This document shows, one piece after another, positions 4,918-13,972 of a stretch of DNA of 20,732 nucleotides (position 1 is its first letter; every line of letters starts with the position of its first letter). The notes below the pieces were generated by a model. It was given only the letters and a program-made list of their open reading frames with translations. It was not told where the DNA came from and made no database searches. The stretch spans positions 1 through 20,732 of IMG/VR virus record IMGVR_UViG_3300012147_000918; one strand, written 5' to 3'. Position numbers and translations under genes: made by a program. The stretch is from a virus.

Positions 4918-7900
4918 ATGGCAATTAATGCAGGCGAAATCTTTGTTAGATTCCGGGCCGATTCAACGCTAGCGGTCCGTGAATTCGCTAAATTTCAAGG
5001 CAAGCTCAATACAACAATCAACAACACTCGCGATAAAGTCAAATCTTTAAATCAATCGTTGAGCGGAATTGGATTGCTTGCGGGCGTAGGGCTTGGCGCT
5101 GCGATTCTTAAAATCGGAAGCGACTTCGATAAAGCTATTACGAATGTTCGGGCGATCACGAAAGAAACTAGCGAGCAGTTCCAAGCAACTCGCGGTAAAG
5201 CAATTGAAATCGCTTCCGAATATGGTAAGGCAGCCGATGAAGTAGGCGGCGCGCTCTTTCAAATTGTATCAGCAGGCAAGCGCGGTGAAGATGCTATTTT
5301 GGCGCTTGTCGCAGCGACAAAACTAGGCAGGGCCGGTTTGGTCGATACAGCGCTTGCAACAGATGTTCTAATCGGTTCGCTCAATGCGTTTAAAATCGAA
5401 GGAAGCCGAGCAGAGGATATCGCAGGCAAGTTGATTGGTACGGTCGATCGCGGCATTCTTACTTTCGATGATCTTGCTACAAAGCTCGGACAAGTGAGCC
5501 CGATTGCATCGGCGGCAGGGCTAGAGATTGAAGAATTGTTAGGCATTATTGCTTTGCTTACCCGAAACGGCGTACAGGCAGCGCAGGCAATCACACAAGC
5601 GCGAGGCGCAATCGTTAAACTTGTCGCGCCCGGCAAGCAAGGGCGAGAAGAAATCGAAAAGTTGCTTGGAACAACTATTGAAGCAACGGTAGCAACAAAA
5701 GGATATATCGGAACGCTTGAAGCGGTTGTCGCAGCAAGCGATGGATCTATCGCGACATTCAAGAAGCTTTTCGAAGATGTTGAGGCCGTGCAAGGAATTA
5801 CCGCTATTGCATCCGCCGGATTTGATCAATTGCGCGGCGATATTGAAGGGTTGCAGAGCGCCGGAGCGGGCACCCTTAACCAAACACTTGCTATTCAGGC
5901 GGGTAGCTTCGCATCGCTTACATCAGAATTGCGAAATCTTGTCCAAAACAGAGTTGTTGCGTTCTTCGACGATAACAGAGAAGCAATCGTCGCGACCACA
6001 AATGCAATCATTGCTTTTGTTCGTAACAACCGTCTTTTGATTGATTCAATCGTAGTATCTACGGCTATCGTCGCGGGGCTTTCCGTTGCCGGGCTTGCTC
6101 TCAAACTTGCATTAACTGGGCTTAGTTTCTTGCTCGGCGGCGCGTCGGTCGCAGTTAACATTCTTTCCGCTGCTAAAGACAGGGACACCGCTTCAACCGT
6201 TGCGAATACCAGTCAGGTTGCAGCAAACAACGCATCGACACTTGTTTCAACCGGCAATATCTATTCAAACAATATGGCCCGCAACTTCTCGTCCGTTTCA
6301 ATTAATGCACAAACCGCCGCGGTCTTAAATCAAAATCGAATCTTAGCGGGCAATGTCGCAGCGCAAGCCGCAGCAGTCGCAACAGGGCGACGAGTCGCAA
6401 CTAACACAGCGGCAACAACGGTTGCAGTAAGCGCGGCGGCGGCATCTACCGGCGTTCTGGCGCGGGCTTGGCAGTTTCTTAATACCTCAATTAAGTTGCC
6501 GGTTCTCTCGCGAATACCGCTTGTGATGAAAGGCGCAGGCATCGCGCTTGTGGGTGCAGCGAAGGGCGCGGCAATCTTCGCGGCAGGGCTTAGCGCAGTA
6601 GCAATCGTCGCGGTTGCTGCGTACAAAGCCGGTCAGCTTATAAGCGATGCCGCTACCGGCAATAGCAAAGCGTATCGGGAAGAACTTAAGGATTTGCGGA
6701 GACTCAACAGCGAAAGAAATCTCGCGTCGATTCGCAATATTACCGGCATCAATTTTGAAACCGCCGCTAATGCAAAATCCGCCGCGTCGGCTGAAAAGTA
6801 TCGGGACACTTTGCTAGCGTTGGCAGACGCACAGAATGAAGCGGCAGCCGGTAGCGCCGAAGCAACAAAGCGCGTCATCGATCTAGAAATTGCTCTATCC
6901 GAACTTGAAGGCACCGGAGCTTCGGCGTTCGAAAACGCAACAGCGGAACTCAAACGATATGAACAAGTTGTTCTTAGCGCATTGAAAGAAACTGGAAAAT
7001 TGAGCGATTCTTACTTGGGCGCTTTCACCGAAAGCGGAAGGCTCATTCAAGGATTCGGACAAAGCTTAGCCGAAGCCGATTCGCTCGGTGAAATTTTGGG
7101 AGAAACCGAAGCAACAAATTTGGTTACTAGAATCAAAGCGGCTAAGGATGCTATTAACGGAATTACGCAAGCACAAATTCAGTTAGAAGAATCTTCGCGC
7201 AGGGCCGCAACTTCATCGGCGCTACTGGCGGGTGCAATCGGCGCGGCGAGATCAGTTTCAGACGAGTACGCTGGTTCAATTCAAAGCTTGTCGCAAAAAG
7301 CAAGTGATCTTGTCACTGGCGAATTCGAAAAATCATTTAACGACATTTCGAAAGACTTGGCGGCTAACGAAGCCATTATTACGCAACTGGTCAAAGCTTA
7401 CGATGATCTTGCTACCAGCGCTCAACAGTTACGAGCGAACAACGCTTCGCCCGAAGAAATCGCTGCGCTAAACGAAACATTTTCCGTGCTGGCACAGCAA
7501 ATCGATCAAGCGGCAGCGAGCAGCGTTATTCTTGCCGCTGCGCTTGGAAACTTGATAGCGGAGCAGAATGAAGAAATTCTTGCTAAGCGAATTGAAGCAA
7601 TCGATGAATCTACACAAGCCGAAATTAGAGCATTGCAGGAAGTCGGCAAGGTTCGCGAAGCCGAAGAACTAGCGGCGCAGCTTCGGCGGGATCAATCGAC
7701 CCGGCGCATTCTGGCAGCGATGCAAGAAGAATCGGACCGGCGCGATGAACTCAGCCGGAAAGAATCTGAATTATTCGAAGAACAAAAAGTCAGAGCCGAA
7801 GAAATAAGAAAAATTAGACAATCGGGCGGTGACGCGTCCGAGCAAGAAAACGCTTTTGATCGGGTAGAGCAAGAGCGAGAAATGCTCCAATTAACTATTG

Positions 7901-9033
7901 AAAGATCAATTGAATTAACCGAACTCTACGAAAACCAAATCGACGGAGTAACAGAATCGTATGGCCGAGAGTTAGAAGCAATAAAGCGCAACGGCGCAGA
8001 GCAAGAGCGCAGGCTAGCAGACGAGCAGCAACGCCGCGCTATCATCGCGCTTGAATTAGAAAAATCCGATCTTTCGCGAATTGCCTTGCAAGCGATTCTA
8101 AGCGGAAATCTCGATGAAGAATTGAAAGCGCGTCAGCGTATCGCAGAAATTGAACTTGAAATTCTCGGCACCAAAGGTTTGCAAGCCGAAAAAGAACTTG
8201 AATCAATCGCTGCAATCGAAGAACGACTTGAGCTTCTACGAGAAGAAATCGAATCTTCAAATAGAATCGGCGGCGGCGCGAGAGAAGCCGGTGATGCGGC
8301 ACAGGATGCGCAAAGAGATATCGGCGGCGCGTCATCGGTTGAGGGAGCAAGGGAAAACATACGCCGAACTTTGGACGAGGATCAGACAGATAAGGGCGTT
8401 AAAGAAAGACAAGACGCATTCGAAGAAACGCTCGATCTAGAGCGCCGGGCGCGACTGCAACAATTAGCAGAAGCGCAGCAAAGAGGCGATGAGGAAGAAC
8501 AAAAACGAATCGAAGAACGAATCGTCCAAATTGACGAATTGCGCCGAATCTTCCAAACCGAAGTTGATCGACGCATTCAAGAAATCAAAGACGAAACCGA
8601 AGCCCGTAGGAAGATCAAAGAAGCGCAAGACGCGCAAGACGCGTTAACGCAGCAACAGCCAGCGCCAGCAGACCCGGCACAGCCCGTAGGACCGGGCACA
8701 GAGGGTCCGGCGACCGAATCCCGGCCCGAACCGGGCAAGCCCGCGCAGGCCGGTACAGAGCCCGCAGGGAGAGCAGCGGCACAGCAAGCAAACGCGCTAA
8801 AAGAACAATCCGAAACCGTTATCGCGGAAATTCGAAACGCTTCAAATGTCCTAGCGGAAAGCACAGAGGGAGTTCGGAACGCGCTAACTTCGCTCGGCAA
8901 TACCGTTGTTTCTACCATGTCCACAATCACCGGAAAAATGGCAGAAATCGCGAAACAAACAAACGAAAATAGTAGAGCGATCCGAGCTATTCAAATCGAA
9001 GCGCAGGCGCTGCAAATCGAAGGGCGAAGCTAA
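4918..9033 (+). CDS. Tail tape measure protein
   Basis: At 1371 residues this is the longest protein here. Tape measure proteins fill the tail tube and set its length; at roughly 0.15 nm per residue it suggests a tail near 200 nm. The start is ATG 4918 with GGAG at 4906-4909. Residues about 65-330 carry the TP901-type N-terminal domain, with FDKAITNVRAITKETSEQF, SAGKRGEDAILALVAATK and FDDLATKLGQVSPIASAAGL. Hydrophobic segments follow near residues 372-420 and 540-572, as expected for a protein that enters the host envelope. From about 860 to 1245 there is a long Glu/Arg/Gln-rich coiled coil, then a Pro/Ala-rich linker near 1248-1285 and a final helix. No lysozyme or peptidase motif is apparent. 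The stop abuts the next ATG. Confidence 0.93.
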   Translation: MAINAGEIFVRFRADSTLAVREFAKFQGKLNTTINNTRDKVKSLNQSLSGIGLLAGVGLGAAILKIGSDFDKAITNVRAITKETSEQFQATRGKAIEIASEYGKAADEVGGALFQIVSAGKRGEDAILALVAATKLGRAGLVDTALATDVLIGSLNAFKIEGSRAEDIAGKLIGTVDRGILTFDDLATKLGQVSPIASAAGLEIEELLGIIALLTRNGVQAAQAITQARGAIVKLVAPGKQGREEIEKLLGTTIEATVATKGYIGTLEAVVAASDGSIATFKKLFEDVEAVQGITAIASAGFDQLRGDIEGLQSAGAGTLNQTLAIQAGSFASLTSELRNLVQNRVVAFFDDNREAIVATTNAIIAFVRNNRLLIDSIVVSTAIVAGLSVAGLALKLALTGLSFLLGGASVAVNILSAAKDRDTASTVANTSQVAANNASTLVSTGNIYSNNMARNFSSVSINAQTAAVLNQNRILAGNVAAQAAAVATGRRVATNTAATTVAVSAAAASTGVLARAWQFLNTSIKLPVLSRIPLVMKGAGIALVGAAKGAAIFAAGLSAVAIVAVAAYKAGQLISDAATGNSKAYREELKDLRRLNSERNLASIRNITGINFETAANAKSAASAEKYRDTLLALADAQNEAAAGSAEATKRVIDLEIALSELEGTGASAFENATAELKRYEQVVLSALKETGKLSDSYLGAFTESGRLIQGFGQSLAEADSLGEILGETEATNLVTRIKAAKDAINGITQAQIQLEESSRRAATSSALLAGAIGAARSVSDEYAGSIQSLSQKASDLVTGEFEKSFNDISKDLAANEAIITQLVKAYDDLATSAQQLRANNASPEEIAALNETFSVLAQQIDQAAASSVILAAALGNLIAEQNEEILAKRIEAIDESTQAEIRALQEVGKVREAEELAAQLRRDQSTRRILAAMQEESDRRDELSRKESELFEEQKVRAEEIRKIRQSGGDASEQENAFDRVEQEREMLQLTIERSIELTELYENQIDGVTESYGRELEAIKRNGAEQERRLADEQQRRAIIALELEKSDLSRIALQAILSGNLDEELKARQRIAEIELEILGTKGLQAEKELESIAAIEERLELLREEIESSNRIGGGAREAGDAAQDAQRDIGGASSVEGARENIRRTLDEDQTDKGVKERQDAFEETLDLERRARLQQLAEAQQRGDEEEQKRIEERIVQIDELRRIFQTEVDRRIQEIKDETEARRKIKEAQDAQDALTQQQPAPADPAQPVGPGTEGPATESRPEPGKPAQAGTEPAGRAAAQQANALKEQSETVIAEIRNASNVLAESTEGVRNALTSLGNTVVSTMSTITGKMAEIAKQTNENSRAIRAIQIEAQALQIEGRS

Positions 9034-10437
9034 ATGGAATCAATATTCTTTCAACGGCGAACGGACGGAATTAATTCGAATATCGGGTTGCCGATTCAAA
9101 TCGGAAAACTTCCCGGCACCGGCGTAGGTTCGTATGTTCAGCCAGAATATAGAAAAACGCAGCAAGGCGGGATTATTCGATGGGAAGTCGATGTTCCCGT
9201 GATCCCATATGAGCCGACAGATAACGATTACGATTTGTCGCTCATGCGCGAAGGCATCAACGCTTATTTGAGCGATCTTTTAAAACTTATGCAGTTTGCA
9301 CCGATTGAGTTGCGAACGATGCCGAACGGAAAAAACTATGTTTCGTTTCGAAATCAGCAACGCGGAGACTTGATCGTTAAAACGCTTTTCGAAAGCGAAG
9401 TCATCGAAACTAATGTCGCTATCAGCGATGCTAGAATCATCGAAGATGAAATGATGATGTCGGGCGGCATGGTCATTCGGCTTGTCTTTGTTAAAGAATC
9501 CGACTTGCAGCTACCCGATCAACGATGGGCGAGTTTTAGAATTAGAGCGGGCGGAACGGGTTCTCAATTAGCACAAATTGCAATCACGGACAATGGCACA
9601 CAATCTTCCAGACTTACTACATTTGAAATAGATTCGGCTGGTCCGATTCAACGGTTAGTAATCAGCGCATGGTATTCGTCCGAAGCCGGAGCCCGTTCGC
9701 TCGCATCGATCATCGGATATCCGGATCTGAAAAAAGCCGATATGCTATGGTCGCCGGTAATAATCAAAAACGATTCGCTCGGAAGGCCGGTAATTCTCAA
9801 CACGCGAAACAACTTCGGCGATATTACAATCGATAGCGGATTTCAAGGATCGGCGGTTATTACGCTTTTGCAAAATGCGGTTTTGCAAGATATTGCGATT
9901 GTTAGTTACGACGAAGGCGGCGGCGTGCAAATTCAGTACACTTTCATTAGTGTTAAAGCCGAATTCCGTCCGCCGCTTAGATACTTTCGGTTTAGAATAT
10001 CGAATTCCCCAACCGTTACCGTTCCGCTCGGCGTTAACGATCCCGAATCGGCATGGCTTGGAGAACTATCGGTATACGGGTCTGGAAAACTTACGCTAGC
10101 AACCGTTCGATCTTGGATGCCGAATGATCATGGCGCTACGGAGCTTCTCGATGTTCAATCTAAGGGCGAAGCCATTCGAAATGCTTGCCGATTTTCCCCG
10201 CCGCTTCTAAAAGATATGCCGCGAGGAAAGGCTATCATGCCGAAAATTCAAAACAATTTCGGCACACTTTATTACAGCAATTCTTACTTGTCAGGCTCCG
10301 AAACAAGCGGTACGATGGTGCTTACCAATTGCACAATGATGGAACCACCTAAAGTTTTTGAATCTCTCAATGAAGGCGGGGTAGGAATGGAATTCACTTT
10401 CGGGCGAGTCGCCGACAGCAACAGGGTTACAACTTAA
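9034..10437 (+). CDS. Tail-tip protein with three repeated beta modules
   Basis: This 467-residue protein starts directly after the tape measure stop (TAAATG), with AAGGG at 9020-9024. In siphoviruses this position is usually held by the distal tail protein that links tube and tip, and that is my tentative call. I see a repeated module near residues 88-155, 238-307 and 387-460. Each has a Gly followed by an N-x-x-x-G-D/T-hydrophobic turn (RNQQRGDL, TRNNFGDI, IQNNFGTL), then a late Gly-Gly beta hairpin (SGGMVIRLVF, EGGGVQIQYTF, NEGGVGMEFTF). No enzyme motif is evident. It shares one base with the next start (TAATG). Confidence 0.65.
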   Translation: MESIFFQRRTDGINSNIGLPIQIGKLPGTGVGSYVQPEYRKTQQGGIIRWEVDVPVIPYEPTDNDYDLSLMREGINAYLSDLLKLMQFAPIELRTMPNGKNYVSFRNQQRGDLIVKTLFESEVIETNVAISDARIIEDEMMMSGGMVIRLVFVKESDLQLPDQRWASFRIRAGGTGSQLAQIAITDNGTQSSRLTTFEIDSAGPIQRLVISAWYSSEAGARSLASIIGYPDLKKADMLWSPVIIKNDSLGRPVILNTRNNFGDITIDSGFQGSAVITLLQNAVLQDIAIVSYDEGGGVQIQYTFISVKAEFRPPLRYFRFRISNSPTVTVPLGVNDPESAWLGELSVYGSGKLTLATVRSWMPNDHGATELLDVQSKGEAIRNACRFSPPLLKDMPRGKAIMPKIQNNFGTLYYSNSYLSGSETSGTMVLTNCTMMEPPKVFESLNEGGVGMEFTFGRVADSNRVTT

Positions 10438-12914
10438 TGAGCGTCTTCGAACTTAATACCGAATCAATCGAAATACTAGAACTTTCTCACCGGATGTCGC
10501 GAGCTTCGCGATGCCGGTTTGTTCTTAATTCTGTTAGAGTATCAGGAAGCAACGCGGGCACACCGATTGATCCTGATTCCAGCGCCGCGGGATTTGGGTT
10601 CGGCGATTCGGAAAAGTTGGCAACGCGACAGGAAGTGCGATACACCGCCGACGATGGTACAATTTTGTTTGTTGGCAAAGTCCTACCGGCCCGGCGATCG
10701 ATTTCAGCTACTAGCGAAGGAATCGAATATGTCGCGGCAGATATTGTAGAATTTCTCGGCAACAATCCCGCCGATCAAGTCAACCGTTTTTATAATCAAA
10801 ATCGCAACGATTCAACCGCGTTTTCTTACCCGACTGAATTCACAATTGAACAAATTGTTCAAACAGAATTTGCGCGCATTATTGGAGTGCCTTCAAACGC
10901 CGAACATATTATCGAATCGATTGATTGGAGTAAGGCCGAAGACTTGCGCGGATTGACGGTTTATGATTTCCAAACCGAAGGGAAAAGCTGGTTACAACTT
11001 CTCGACCAATTGCGCGACGAAATTCCGATGCTGGCATATTGGTTCGATCCGCGCGGAGCAGACCGATCAAGCGATACTCGCGGCGTTACGCTTCGATTTT
11101 ATAACCTATCGCCAGCTTCAAACGGCGATGATAGTATTAGCAACAACGAGCGCGTCCGGCTTGTGTTGCCAAAGCGTGATAGCGAAGGGTCAAACAACTT
11201 TCAAAACATTATGAGCTTCAATTTCGATGAAGATATTTCGCAATCTTACGATAAACTTACAATCGTTGGATGGGGCGATTTCTATGAGCGGTACGATAAA
11301 CTGCGCCCCGCATGGCTATCAGGAATTTCCAGATCGGGTCTGTTTTCGAATCCAGACGGATTCCCCGATTCGGCTTCCGACAAAACAGTTTATCCGCTCC
11401 GAAGGAATCCAGATACCGGCAATTGGCAACGATACGACGACTCGCAAATCAACGGCGGCGCATGGATGCCGAACGCGGGCAATGTTTGGACACCGGACCG
11501 AAATACAATCGACGCGCGTAGAGCATTTCGGCGATATCAAACGCCAAATAAACCCAATGGCGAGCAACGGCGAATTATCAATTTTAAAGCCGAAATGCAG
11601 TTAGGCACCGACGAACAATCTCGGCTTGTAAGTGTTGAAAACGCAATTCGAATGGAAACCATTTCGCATATTTGGTACATGGGCGAAGTCCAAGCATCGG
11701 CGCAGGGCGTAAAGATCGGCCCGTTCACCGGCGGAGTGCAAAACGATTGGGGCGATGTAAGGCCGAGCGTTACTTATTATCCAGATTATCCGATTGGTCC
11801 GCCATTGCCGGGCGGCGGCGGAAATGCAGAAATGCAGCCTAAATTCGAATTGCCAATTACCGCGGTTGTTGAAGAAAACATTTTCTTTTTAAGTCAACCG
11901 TTAGTTAGGGAAACAAAGTATCTTTTCACCGAGAATCAAAGCGGAACCGGATGGAATAATTTAGTTAATACTCTGGTTGTTCTATACTGGCCCGTTGGCT
12001 TTGATTTGTGGGCAAACTACACACAATGGGACGAATTCGAATCACGCCGATTCAATGAATCTTTTGGTTACGAAAAGCATCTTGTTCTTTACGAACCAAG
12101 ATTTTTTAGATATACAAATATCAACGGCGAAGTATTGCGCGACGATACGGCGATCATGAACGAATATTCGGAAACGCTTTTCGATTTTTTGATCAAGCCT
12201 CGATATTACGGCGCGGCTGAAATCGATGTTTCGGTGTTGGGCTCTGAAACCAGAGTCTTTAGCAATCGTGCAAACCAGCGCGATATTTTCATAGGCTCAC
12301 CAATTCAAATCGAAAACTGGAAGCCTCAAAACCAATACACTACTTTTTTCCCAAAGGTTCTTATCCAGGAACTTGATTTGTCTAAGTACGATTCCGAAAA
12401 AACAGTTCGTGTAGGATTCGATAACCCGCAAACATTTATACCGCTTGAAAACACAAAGAAATTTAAGTCGTTTTTCGAAGGCGCTTTTAACAACGGAATT
12501 GGCGGAACAAACGGAAGCGGAACGGTCGGCAACGGGTGCGGGTGCGGCGGCGGCGGAGCAACTACGCAAGGACCAGGCGGAGGCGGCGGAGGCGGCGGCG
12601 GAGACAATACAAGTTCGGGCACCAATCCGCCACCGTTTACAACACCGGGCAATAGTTCGTCCGGCACAACTAATACAAGTGGAACTAGTAACACTACGAC
12701 CAGTTCAACTACGCCAACAACAACGCCAACCACAACAACTACGAGCAGCAGCAGCAGCAGCGCAAGTACACAAGAGCCCGACAATTCGATTTCAATATTT
12801 ACGGGATCAAGTTTCACGCTTCAAAATAGTTGCATATCGTCCAGCGAAAATAACAGCACAACGCCAGCGCCAGCCGAGCTATTCACGGGCGCGCCGCTTG
12901 AAATACAGCCATGA
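10437..12914 (+). CDS. Tail-tip / baseplate hub-like protein with mucin-like C-terminus
   Basis: This 825-residue protein starts at an ATG that shares a base with the upstream stop. The N-terminal part resembles hub proteins of the late-control-D/gp27 type: SRCRFVLNSVRVSG, then ATRQEVRYTADDGTILFVGK, a SEGIEYVAADIVEFLGNNPA segment and EGKSWLQLLDQLRDE. The resemblance is one of pattern and place. The middle, about 210-680, is rich in aromatic and charged residues and unassigned. From about residue 687 the composition changes sharply. A Gly-rich part contains GCGCGGGG and a run of nine Gly. A tract at residues 725-778 has 38 Ser/Thr in 54 residues. It ends in SISIFTGSSFTLQNSCISSS and a Pro/Ala tail. 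The stop overlaps the glycosyltransferase ATG. It is likely at the host-facing end of the tail. Confidence 0.75.
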   Translation: MSVFELNTESIEILELSHRMSRASRCRFVLNSVRVSGSNAGTPIDPDSSAAGFGFGDSEKLATRQEVRYTADDGTILFVGKVLPARRSISATSEGIEYVAADIVEFLGNNPADQVNRFYNQNRNDSTAFSYPTEFTIEQIVQTEFARIIGVPSNAEHIIESIDWSKAEDLRGLTVYDFQTEGKSWLQLLDQLRDEIPMLAYWFDPRGADRSSDTRGVTLRFYNLSPASNGDDSISNNERVRLVLPKRDSEGSNNFQNIMSFNFDEDISQSYDKLTIVGWGDFYERYDKLRPAWLSGISRSGLFSNPDGFPDSASDKTVYPLRRNPDTGNWQRYDDSQINGGAWMPNAGNVWTPDRNTIDARRAFRRYQTPNKPNGEQRRIINFKAEMQLGTDEQSRLVSVENAIRMETISHIWYMGEVQASAQGVKIGPFTGGVQNDWGDVRPSVTYYPDYPIGPPLPGGGGNAEMQPKFELPITAVVEENIFFLSQPLVRETKYLFTENQSGTGWNNLVNTLVVLYWPVGFDLWANYTQWDEFESRRFNESFGYEKHLVLYEPRFFRYTNINGEVLRDDTAIMNEYSETLFDFLIKPRYYGAAEIDVSVLGSETRVFSNRANQRDIFIGSPIQIENWKPQNQYTTFFPKVLIQELDLSKYDSEKTVRVGFDNPQTFIPLENTKKFKSFFEGAFNNGIGGTNGSGTVGNGCGCGGGGATTQGPGGGGGGGGGDNTSSGTNPPPFTTPGNSSSGTTNTSGTSNTTTSSTTPTTTPTTTTTSSSSSSASTQEPDNSISIFTGSSFTLQNSCISSSENNSTTPAPAELFTGAPLEIQP
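12609..12770 (+). repeat. Low-complexity Ser/Thr-coding tract
   Basis: This stretch encodes residues 725-778 of the tail-tip protein: 38 Ser/Thr, 6 Pro and several Gly/Asn in 54 residues. It is built mostly of ACN and AGY codons and ends in six tandem AGC codons at 12743-12760, which are prone to replication slippage. A Gly tract of mixed GGC/GGA codons lies just upstream at 12576-12602. Composition like this is typical of mucin-type O-glycosylation targets and of spacer segments. Confidence 0.9.
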
Positions 12915-13972
12915 TTATAAATACGCCAGCACCGAAAATTAGTGTTGCGATTGCGACGCTCAATGAGGGACCGGACTTAGAAGTTACGATCGCGATGGTT
13001 TATGCTAGTCGGTACGCGCCGCATGAAGTCATTGTTTGCGATGATAACAGCAAGGAAGATCCTCGCGAGCGGCTTTCATCGTGGATCGGGAAAAGCAACT
13101 TCAAATATTTGCGCAATGATCGTAGATTGGGCAGCGGGCAAACAAAGCAAATTGCTATGTCACAAGCGACCGGCGATTTAATTGTAATTCTCGATAGTCA
13201 TATGCGCCCGCATTGGGAATGGTTAAATCAAATAGCGCAAGCTCACCGCTACCATCCAAACGCGATTCTTTGCACGGAAAGTATCGGGTTCAAACAGCAC
13301 GGATCAAATAATGCGTTTTACGGTCGCGGCGCATGGTTCGATTCTAAAAATCCGTATAAGTATGGGGCGCATACGGTTTCGTGGCAGCCGAGTATCAACC
13401 TAGAGTCTTGCGCATATCCACGAATTACGGCGATGCACGGCGGTTGCTATATCTTCCCCGCGTACCAATACAAAACTATTGGCGAATACTCGCCGCTCTT
13501 GCAAGGATGGGGTTATGAAGAAGAATGGGTCGCGATGCGCGCCGCTATGCTTGGAATCGAAACCCGGTTGATATCAGGATGCCCGATACAACACCAATAC
13601 GAAAGAACAATATCGCGCGAACCCGCTACGCCCGATCGGCATCCGCAAGGATGGGAGCCGATTTATAACAGACACGCGGTATCAATTGCATCTTTCGGGT
13701 GGGATCGTTGGCGATCTCATTACCGCCAGCAAATTAACGAAAATAGTATTCCGCAAACTAGGCCGATTATCAACGACGAATTAGAACGAAATCGGTCCGA
13801 GTTAAACCGCTACCGCCAATTCTTGAAATCCCGGTCGATGCCGGAATCGGATTGGATGGCGCGGGTCGGAATCCAGCATCCGGACCCGGCGCAAGCGTCC
13901 GCCCAAGCCCCGCCAAATGAGCCCCAATCGATTTTTTCGATCGAAGCCGGGCCGAATCCCGCGGAATCCTAG
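12911..13972 (+). CDS. GT-A glycosyltransferase resembling polypeptide GalNAc-transferases
   Basis: This 353-residue enzyme probably transfers a sugar from a nucleotide donor. It opens with a GT2-like strand (KISVAIATLNEGPDL) and DDNS at 44-47. The next motifs match what I recall of animal GALNT (GT27) catalytic domains: LRNDRR-x-G from residue 67, the metal-binding LDSH with D95 and H97, M-x-G-G at 175-178, W-G-x-E-x-E at 200-205 followed by a conserved-type Arg, and a late H-x-x-x-R with H228. In GALNTs the DxH pair and the late His hold Mn2+. The C-terminal lectin domain of GALNTs is absent; a Pro/Ala-rich tail replaces it. ATG 12911 overlaps the tail-tip stop (ATGA), with no Shine-Dalgarno site, so translation is probably coupled. 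Activity and donor are unproven. Confidence 0.85.
   Translation: MIINTPAPKISVAIATLNEGPDLEVTIAMVYASRYAPHEVIVCDDNSKEDPRERLSSWIGKSNFKYLRNDRRLGSGQTKQIAMSQATGDLIVILDSHMRPHWEWLNQIAQAHRYHPNAILCTESIGFKQHGSNNAFYGRGAWFDSKNPYKYGAHTVSWQPSINLESCAYPRITAMHGGCYIFPAYQYKTIGEYSPLLQGWGYEEEWVAMRAAMLGIETRLISGCPIQHQYERTISREPATPDRHPQGWEPIYNRHAVSIASFGWDRWRSHYRQQINENSIPQTRPIINDELERNRSELNRYRQFLKSRSMPESDWMARVGIQHPDPAQASAQAPPNEPQSIFSIEAGPNPAES

Follow-up and report, generated by a model that had tools for sequence, protein, structure and literature searches.

We analysed a 20.7 kb stretch of viral DNA, record IMGVR_UViG_3300012147_000918 (called the window below), which carries late genes of a siphovirus-like phage. In it, the gene of a putative tail protein of 825 amino acids (aa), with a Ser/Thr-rich C-terminal region, overlaps the gene of a 353-aa glycosyltransferase, referred to here as P0001. 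Our analysis suggests that P0001 is a phage polypeptide O-glycosyltransferase which probably modifies the phage's own Ser/Thr-rich tail appendage, based on homology and on the repeated pairing of such genes in other phages. The features at this locus are as follows, "ORF" standing for open reading frame.

10437..12914, + strand: ORF of the putative acceptor gene, an 825-aa tail protein with a Gly-rich and then Ser/Thr-rich C-terminal region.
12609..12770, + strand: Ser/Thr-rich, mucin-like tract, by composition count.
12911..12914, + strand: ATGA overlap of 4 bp between the stop of the acceptor gene (12912-12914) and the ATG of the glycosyltransferase gene (12911).
12911..13972, + strand: GT27/GT60-like GT-A glycosyltransferase of 353 aa, by Pfam, phmmer against the PDB, family profile, AlphaFold2 (AF2) model with Foldseek, and hydropathy.
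13193..13201, + strand: D95-S96-H97, a D-x-H metal motif in place of D-x-D, with D and H invariant in 11/11 sequences.
13508..13519, + strand: W200-G201-Y202-E203, start of the helix that bears xED in inverting enzymes, by alignment.
13592..13594, + strand: H228, the C-terminal metal-binding His (C-His), invariant in 11/11 sequences.

An earlier note on this DNA, made from the letters alone, had counted 38 Ser/Thr in 54 residues plus Pro at the end of the tail protein, and our recount gives the same 38 (22 Thr and 16 Ser) together with 6 Pro. The enrichment runs on to the C-terminus, where 52 of the last 101 residues are Ser or Thr. By comparison, the next best of the 20 window genes that were checked reaches 16 in 54 residues, and when the 825-aa protein itself was shuffled 2000 times the count never exceeded 25. 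All four ACN codons are in use for Thr (10 ACA, 6 ACG, 5 ACT and 3 ACC), and hence the region, apart from one run of six AGC, is not a simple DNA repeat; the mixed Thr codons point to selection at the protein level. The 825-aa protein has no convincing match among profiles or PDB sequences, and its putative label as a tail-tip or hub protein is taken solely from gene order, its gene following that of the tape measure with one further tail-cluster gene in between. The 4-base overlap reported in the same note is indeed an ATGA; a 4-bp overlap likewise occurs in three of the related loci described below (L032, L046 and L051), and the one in the window is probably a case of translational coupling.

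P0001 matches glycosyltransferase profiles alone in Pfam, with the broad PF00535 match at 2.5e-19. When it was searched by itself against the PDB using phmmer, human GALNT12, T2, T10 and T7 ranked first (3.9e-9 and weaker), together with other N-acetylgalactosamine (GalNAc) transferases. With a profile of six family members, GALNT chains fill places 1-15 of the PDB matches (3.5e-24 to 1.1e-15) over the whole catalytic domain, and the next match is chondroitin synthase at 2.4e-13, covering the N-terminal half only. Alignment of the family with GALNT2/12 by hhalign gives 99.5% probability (1.4e-22), and the D-x-H is aligned to the metal site, in agreement with the GT27 relationship that the earlier note had proposed to check by profile and by structure. 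We predicted the structure of P0001 with AF2 from an 11-sequence alignment (predicted local distance difference test, pLDDT, 75.9; predicted template modelling score, pTM, 0.76), the model from the single sequence being unusable at pLDDT 34. All 50 of the 50 best Foldseek matches of the model in the PDB are GalNAc-transferases (2.2e-18, TMq about 0.65). In the viral structure library BFVD the best matches are generic glycosyltransferases, weaker than those in the PDB, with some Caudovirales proteins named 'Glycosyltransferase, GlcNAc' (N-acetylglucosamine) at lower ranks.

GT27 (GALNT1-20, PGANTs and Toxoplasma GalNAc-T3) is therefore closest to P0001 by sequence, profile and fold, and shares with it the GT-A fold, the D-x-H with the C-His, and the W-G helix start. 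The two differ in that P0001, at 353 aa and with no lectin profile match, lacks the ricin-type lectin domain, as the earlier note had said; it has no membrane anchor either, is only about 19% identical, and carries E/Q where GT27 has N after the WGxE position. The GALNT-like motif series read by that note is present in full in P0001 (LRNDRR 67-72, LDSH 94-97, MHGG 175-178, WGYEEE 200-205 and H228-QYE-R232), but one part of it does not hold across the family. The W-G-x-E-x-E region takes forms such as WGLDEE, WGNEQE and WGYGEQ, with Y/L/N/F, E/D/G and E/Q after the WG, and since the E-x-E part varies in this way, only W-G is strictly conserved.

The metal motif of the family is DSH or DAH, where most generic phage GT2s have DxD instead, and the position of the xED-Asp is Glu or Gln, never Asp. 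Despite the PF00535 match, the family thus shows neither the DxD nor the xED catalytic Asp of inverting GT2 enzymes. According to a survey of GT-A enzymes (PMC7185993), GT27 and GT60 have DxH instead of DxD, and both carry out O-glycosylation of Ser/Thr in polypeptides; in GT27 the metal is bound by a C-terminal His, and the Asp of the xED motif, a feature of inverting enzymes, is variable among retaining ones. We call P0001 GT27/GT60-like because it has the D-x-H and C-His given there for those families, and from its sequence it is probably a retaining enzyme. The GT60 alpha-GlcNAc-transferases (Dictyostelium Skp1 and trypanosome mucin type) have the same D-x-H and Ser/Thr polypeptide acceptors (PMC7185993); the GT60 (GlcNAc) model is absent from the Pfam matches of P0001 up to E 1, and the fold matches are to GT27. 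The GT2 chondroitin synthase/GT7-type enzymes, a neighbouring GT-A clade (PMC7185993) which supplies the second-best PDB profile matches, are unlike P0001 in having DxD with the xED-Asp and polysaccharide acceptors.

The PF00535 match, along with weak PHROG matches named GtrB-like or glycosyltransferase, could also indicate a GtrB-like enzyme that modifies the host surface polysaccharide for serotype conversion or superinfection exclusion. We consider this improbable, as hydropathy finds no transmembrane segment in P0001 (maximum 19-residue value 1.0), no gtrA/gtrC-like gene was recognised nearby, the gene lies in a late tail operon, and the metal site is of the GT27 type and not DxD.

The enzyme family consists of 11 sequences from IMG/VR, 28-34% identical to P0001, whose members were recovered by rounds of alignment-driven scans (loci L023, L032, L033, L034/L038, L035/L036/L037, L045, L046, L047/L048 and L049). 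Exact-peptide scans with P0001 found no relatives, and a fixed-spacing DNA motif pattern (D-x-H ... GG ... WG) returned the window and otherwise two chance sites, L004 and L005. For the family members that were tested, the annotated phage records of INPHARED contain no close relative, and the one plasmid match that was inspected proved to be a DxD-type GT2. Actinobacterial genomes gave mostly generic GT2 matches over the N-terminal half, plus two DAH enzymes. These two, in L058 (1399-2370) and L057, are GT27-like with an L-D-A-H motif and are possibly cellular relatives of the phage family; no Ser/Thr-rich gene is evident adjoining the L058 enzyme.

The earlier note had looked to the co-occurrence of tract and enzyme in homologous phages, and Ser/Thr- or Thr-rich genes do adjoin the enzymes, or sit just upstream of them, in eight lineages. 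L032 is a T7-like podovirus, with an RNA polymerase, a head-tail adaptor and a tail tubular protein; there the start of the enzyme gene overlaps a Thr-rich ORF of 131 aa by 4 bp. In L033, L034/L038, L035 and L045-L048, the gene ahead of the enzyme codes for a small conserved FYGG domain followed by a fast-changing tail. To one side of these loci lie tape measure and DUF2460 genes, and to the other side genes of the baseplate hub and of NlpC/P60. The tail has about 42 consecutive Thr with mixed codons in L038, and is Ser-rich in L033 and moderately Ser/Thr-rich in L035. L023 joins everything in a single 531-residue ORF, in which a Thr-rich stretch connects the FYGG domain to the enzyme. L049 (138-2734) holds a D-A-H family member at a contig end with its upstream side cut off; the two small ORFs after the enzyme have no Pfam matches. 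Two further loci, L051 and L055, were first taken as generic matches but fall beside GALNT in the enzyme tree. L051 (7320-12335) has a mucin-like 864-aa gene with TTEEPTT-type repeats whose end overlaps a GALNT-like enzyme gene by 4 bp; this enzyme is without a clear D-x-H and matches the PDB most strongly over its C-terminal half (1.3e-10). In L055 (7215-13458), a gene that encodes more than 100 consecutive Thr/Ser lies about 1.1 kb upstream of a D-A-H glycosyltransferase.

More telling than the statistics given below is that the pairing is present in at least three unrelated structural contexts (the window, the podovirus L032 and the FYGG tail cluster), in addition to L051 and L055. In the tree P0001 groups with L023 and then with L032, which differ in their tail or virion contexts, and because the tree joins these three across such contexts, the acceptor-enzyme pair seems to move together.

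Genes that could decorate the sugar further are found near several relatives. A methyltransferase-like domain is fused to the enzyme in L038 (a weak match), and the ORF after the enzyme in L032 resembles glucuronoxylan 4-O-methyltransferases (GXM-like), just below the curated cut-off. L051 has a clear S-adenosylmethionine (SAM) methyltransferase two genes past the enzyme, and also an unknown 248-aa ORF; the region 7320-12335 is probably a glycan cluster of another phage. The enzyme of L055 is followed by a Methyltransf_24+GT2 protein, a domain pair that Che8 gp108 has as well. These methyltransferase genes fit a glycan that is extended and methylated.

A simpler explanation of the pairing would be that the Ser/Thr tract is a flexible spacer, and that the glycosyltransferase is a passenger, an enzyme borne on the tail tip to act on the host surface, or a sugar-binding module. 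The fusion in L023, where a Thr-rich linker joins the enzyme domain to a tail domain, is consistent with it, and so is the location of the enzyme genes in tail clusters between DUF2460 and baseplate-hub genes. However, a spacer need not remain rich in Ser and Thr, and the richness persists despite divergence (42 Thr in L038, TTEEPTT in L051, PTS in the window); the enzyme is mostly a separate ORF without an attachment domain; and generic phage GT2 genes are without such a Ser/Thr-rich neighbour. We therefore regard the spacer explanation as unlikely, though less so than modification of the host polysaccharide.

To put the pairing in numbers, we took for each enzyme the 40-residue stretch with the most Ser/Thr in the 3 kb upstream and counted these residues (ST40). 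At a cut-off of 14, which was set after the data had been seen, 10 of the 11 GALNT-affine loci reach or exceed it, versus 1 of the 16 generic GT2 loci (Fisher 1.4e-5), and the richest-stretch counts with one locus per lineage give a Mann-Whitney p of 5.5e-5. Several points weigh against glycosylation of the appendage by P0001, and the late choice of this cut-off is one of them. The control loci are few, and L051 and L055, which had first been counted as controls, were reassigned to the GALNT-affine loci on the basis of the tree, after a first look at the Ser/Thr content near L051. The FYGG-gene lineages are not independent because they share ancestry, and their tails are weakly Thr-rich in L045-L048 (6-9 Ser/Thr of 20 in L045/L046/L048), so that the pairing is not absolute. 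The exact WGGEN motif of GT27 is not kept in the family, the N position being E or Q. Beside the window enzyme, neither a methyltransferase gene nor any other glycan gene was recognised, and Ser/Thr-rich tracts can also be plain linkers.

Glycosylation of virion proteins by phage enzymes is already known. In the mycobacteriophages Che8, Corndog and Myrna, phage glycosyltransferases glycosylate virion proteins (Freeman et al. 2023, cited in the excerpts of PMC12363180 and PMC12619734). The window phage is like Che8 in encoding its own glycosyltransferase. The modified proteins of the Che8 type are the capsid and tail tube, and no mucin-like gene partner is reported in the same excerpts. Che8 gp109 and gp110 have no GALNT match in the PDB and gp110 is not similar to P0001, gp108 being compared by Pfam only; a role of P0001 as a Che8-type capsid glycosylator is not supported, given the lack of homology to gp109/gp110. 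What appears to be new, as far as the literature was searched, is the pairing of a GALNT-like enzyme with a Ser/Thr-rich acceptor in phages, of which we found no report. Phage glycosyltransferases that modify DNA are also known (cited in the excerpt of PMC12619734), and P0001 might in principle glycosylate hypermodified phage DNA. This is the least probable of the explanations considered, and a very improbable one: the window, which is a fragment record, has no recognised gene for nucleotide hypermodification, the enzyme is coupled to a tail gene, and the relatives adjoin Ser/Thr-rich structural genes.

The gene order in the window is the major capsid gene (C-terminal part), head-tail genes, tape measure, tail-cluster gene, 825-aa gene and glycosyltransferase. 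The remaining features are:

35-721: capsid protein gene, C-terminal part.
4918-9033: tape measure gene (Pfam PF10145).
9034-10437: tail-cluster gene between the tape measure gene and the 825-aa gene.

The capsid protein resembles those of actinobacteriophages, e.g. Gordonia phage Aleemily (32% identity). By contrast, the tail clusters in which most of the enzyme relatives lie have DUF2460 genes and hub genes of the phiJL001 Gp84 type. Directly 3' of the major capsid gene, a 232-aa gene (752-1450) matches PHROG 4603 ('alpha-2,3-sialyltransferase') at 1.9e-10, with a Pfam MptE-like match below the cut-off, and is possibly a second sugar-related gene in the window. Searches with the tail protein and the capsid found only L002, a near-identical contig that reaches a terminase-like gene in the opposite direction, and L003, a 37% capsid relative; neither covers the tail-protein/enzyme region.

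If P0001 does glycosylate the tail appendage, the tail protein and the enzyme would be made from one message late in infection, with ribosomes reinitiating at the ATGA overlap to translate the enzyme. This enzyme, which is soluble, would take a nucleotide-sugar of the host, probably uridine diphosphate (UDP) N-acetylhexosamine (HexNAc) or UDP-hexose, with Mn2+ held by D95, H97 and H228. It would attach the first sugar to the side chains of Ser and Thr in the tail protein's disordered C-terminal tract, as GT27 and GT60 do on mucin-like peptides. The tract would then be the acceptor, the linkage O-linked to Ser/Thr and the donor presumably a HexNAc, and the outcome would be a flexible, sugar-coated virion appendage. 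Such a coat might shield against proteases or defences, extend the appendage or serve in adhesion; the virion shielding or lectin-type host binding suggested in the earlier note is speculation.

In a wider sense, tailed phages may make their own mucins. We propose, with confidence evenly balanced between this and its opposite, a mobile two-gene module of a Ser/Thr-rich appendage and a lectin-less GT27/GT60-type enzyme, often with methyltransferases, which has spread among unrelated phages; it would be the prokaryotic counterpart to mucin-type O-glycosylation in animals and perhaps a relative of its source. The known strategy of virion glycosylation would here use a different class of enzymes, that of the starters of animal mucin O-glycans, with a recognisable dedicated acceptor. 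A Ser/Thr-rich tail gene next to a DxH glycosyltransferase would be a genomic signature for finding glycosylated phages, and the family would be a source of lectin-less enzymes, small and soluble, with which peptides may be O-glycosylated in bacteria. The existence and purpose of mucin-like appendages on tailed phages would thereby become directly testable.

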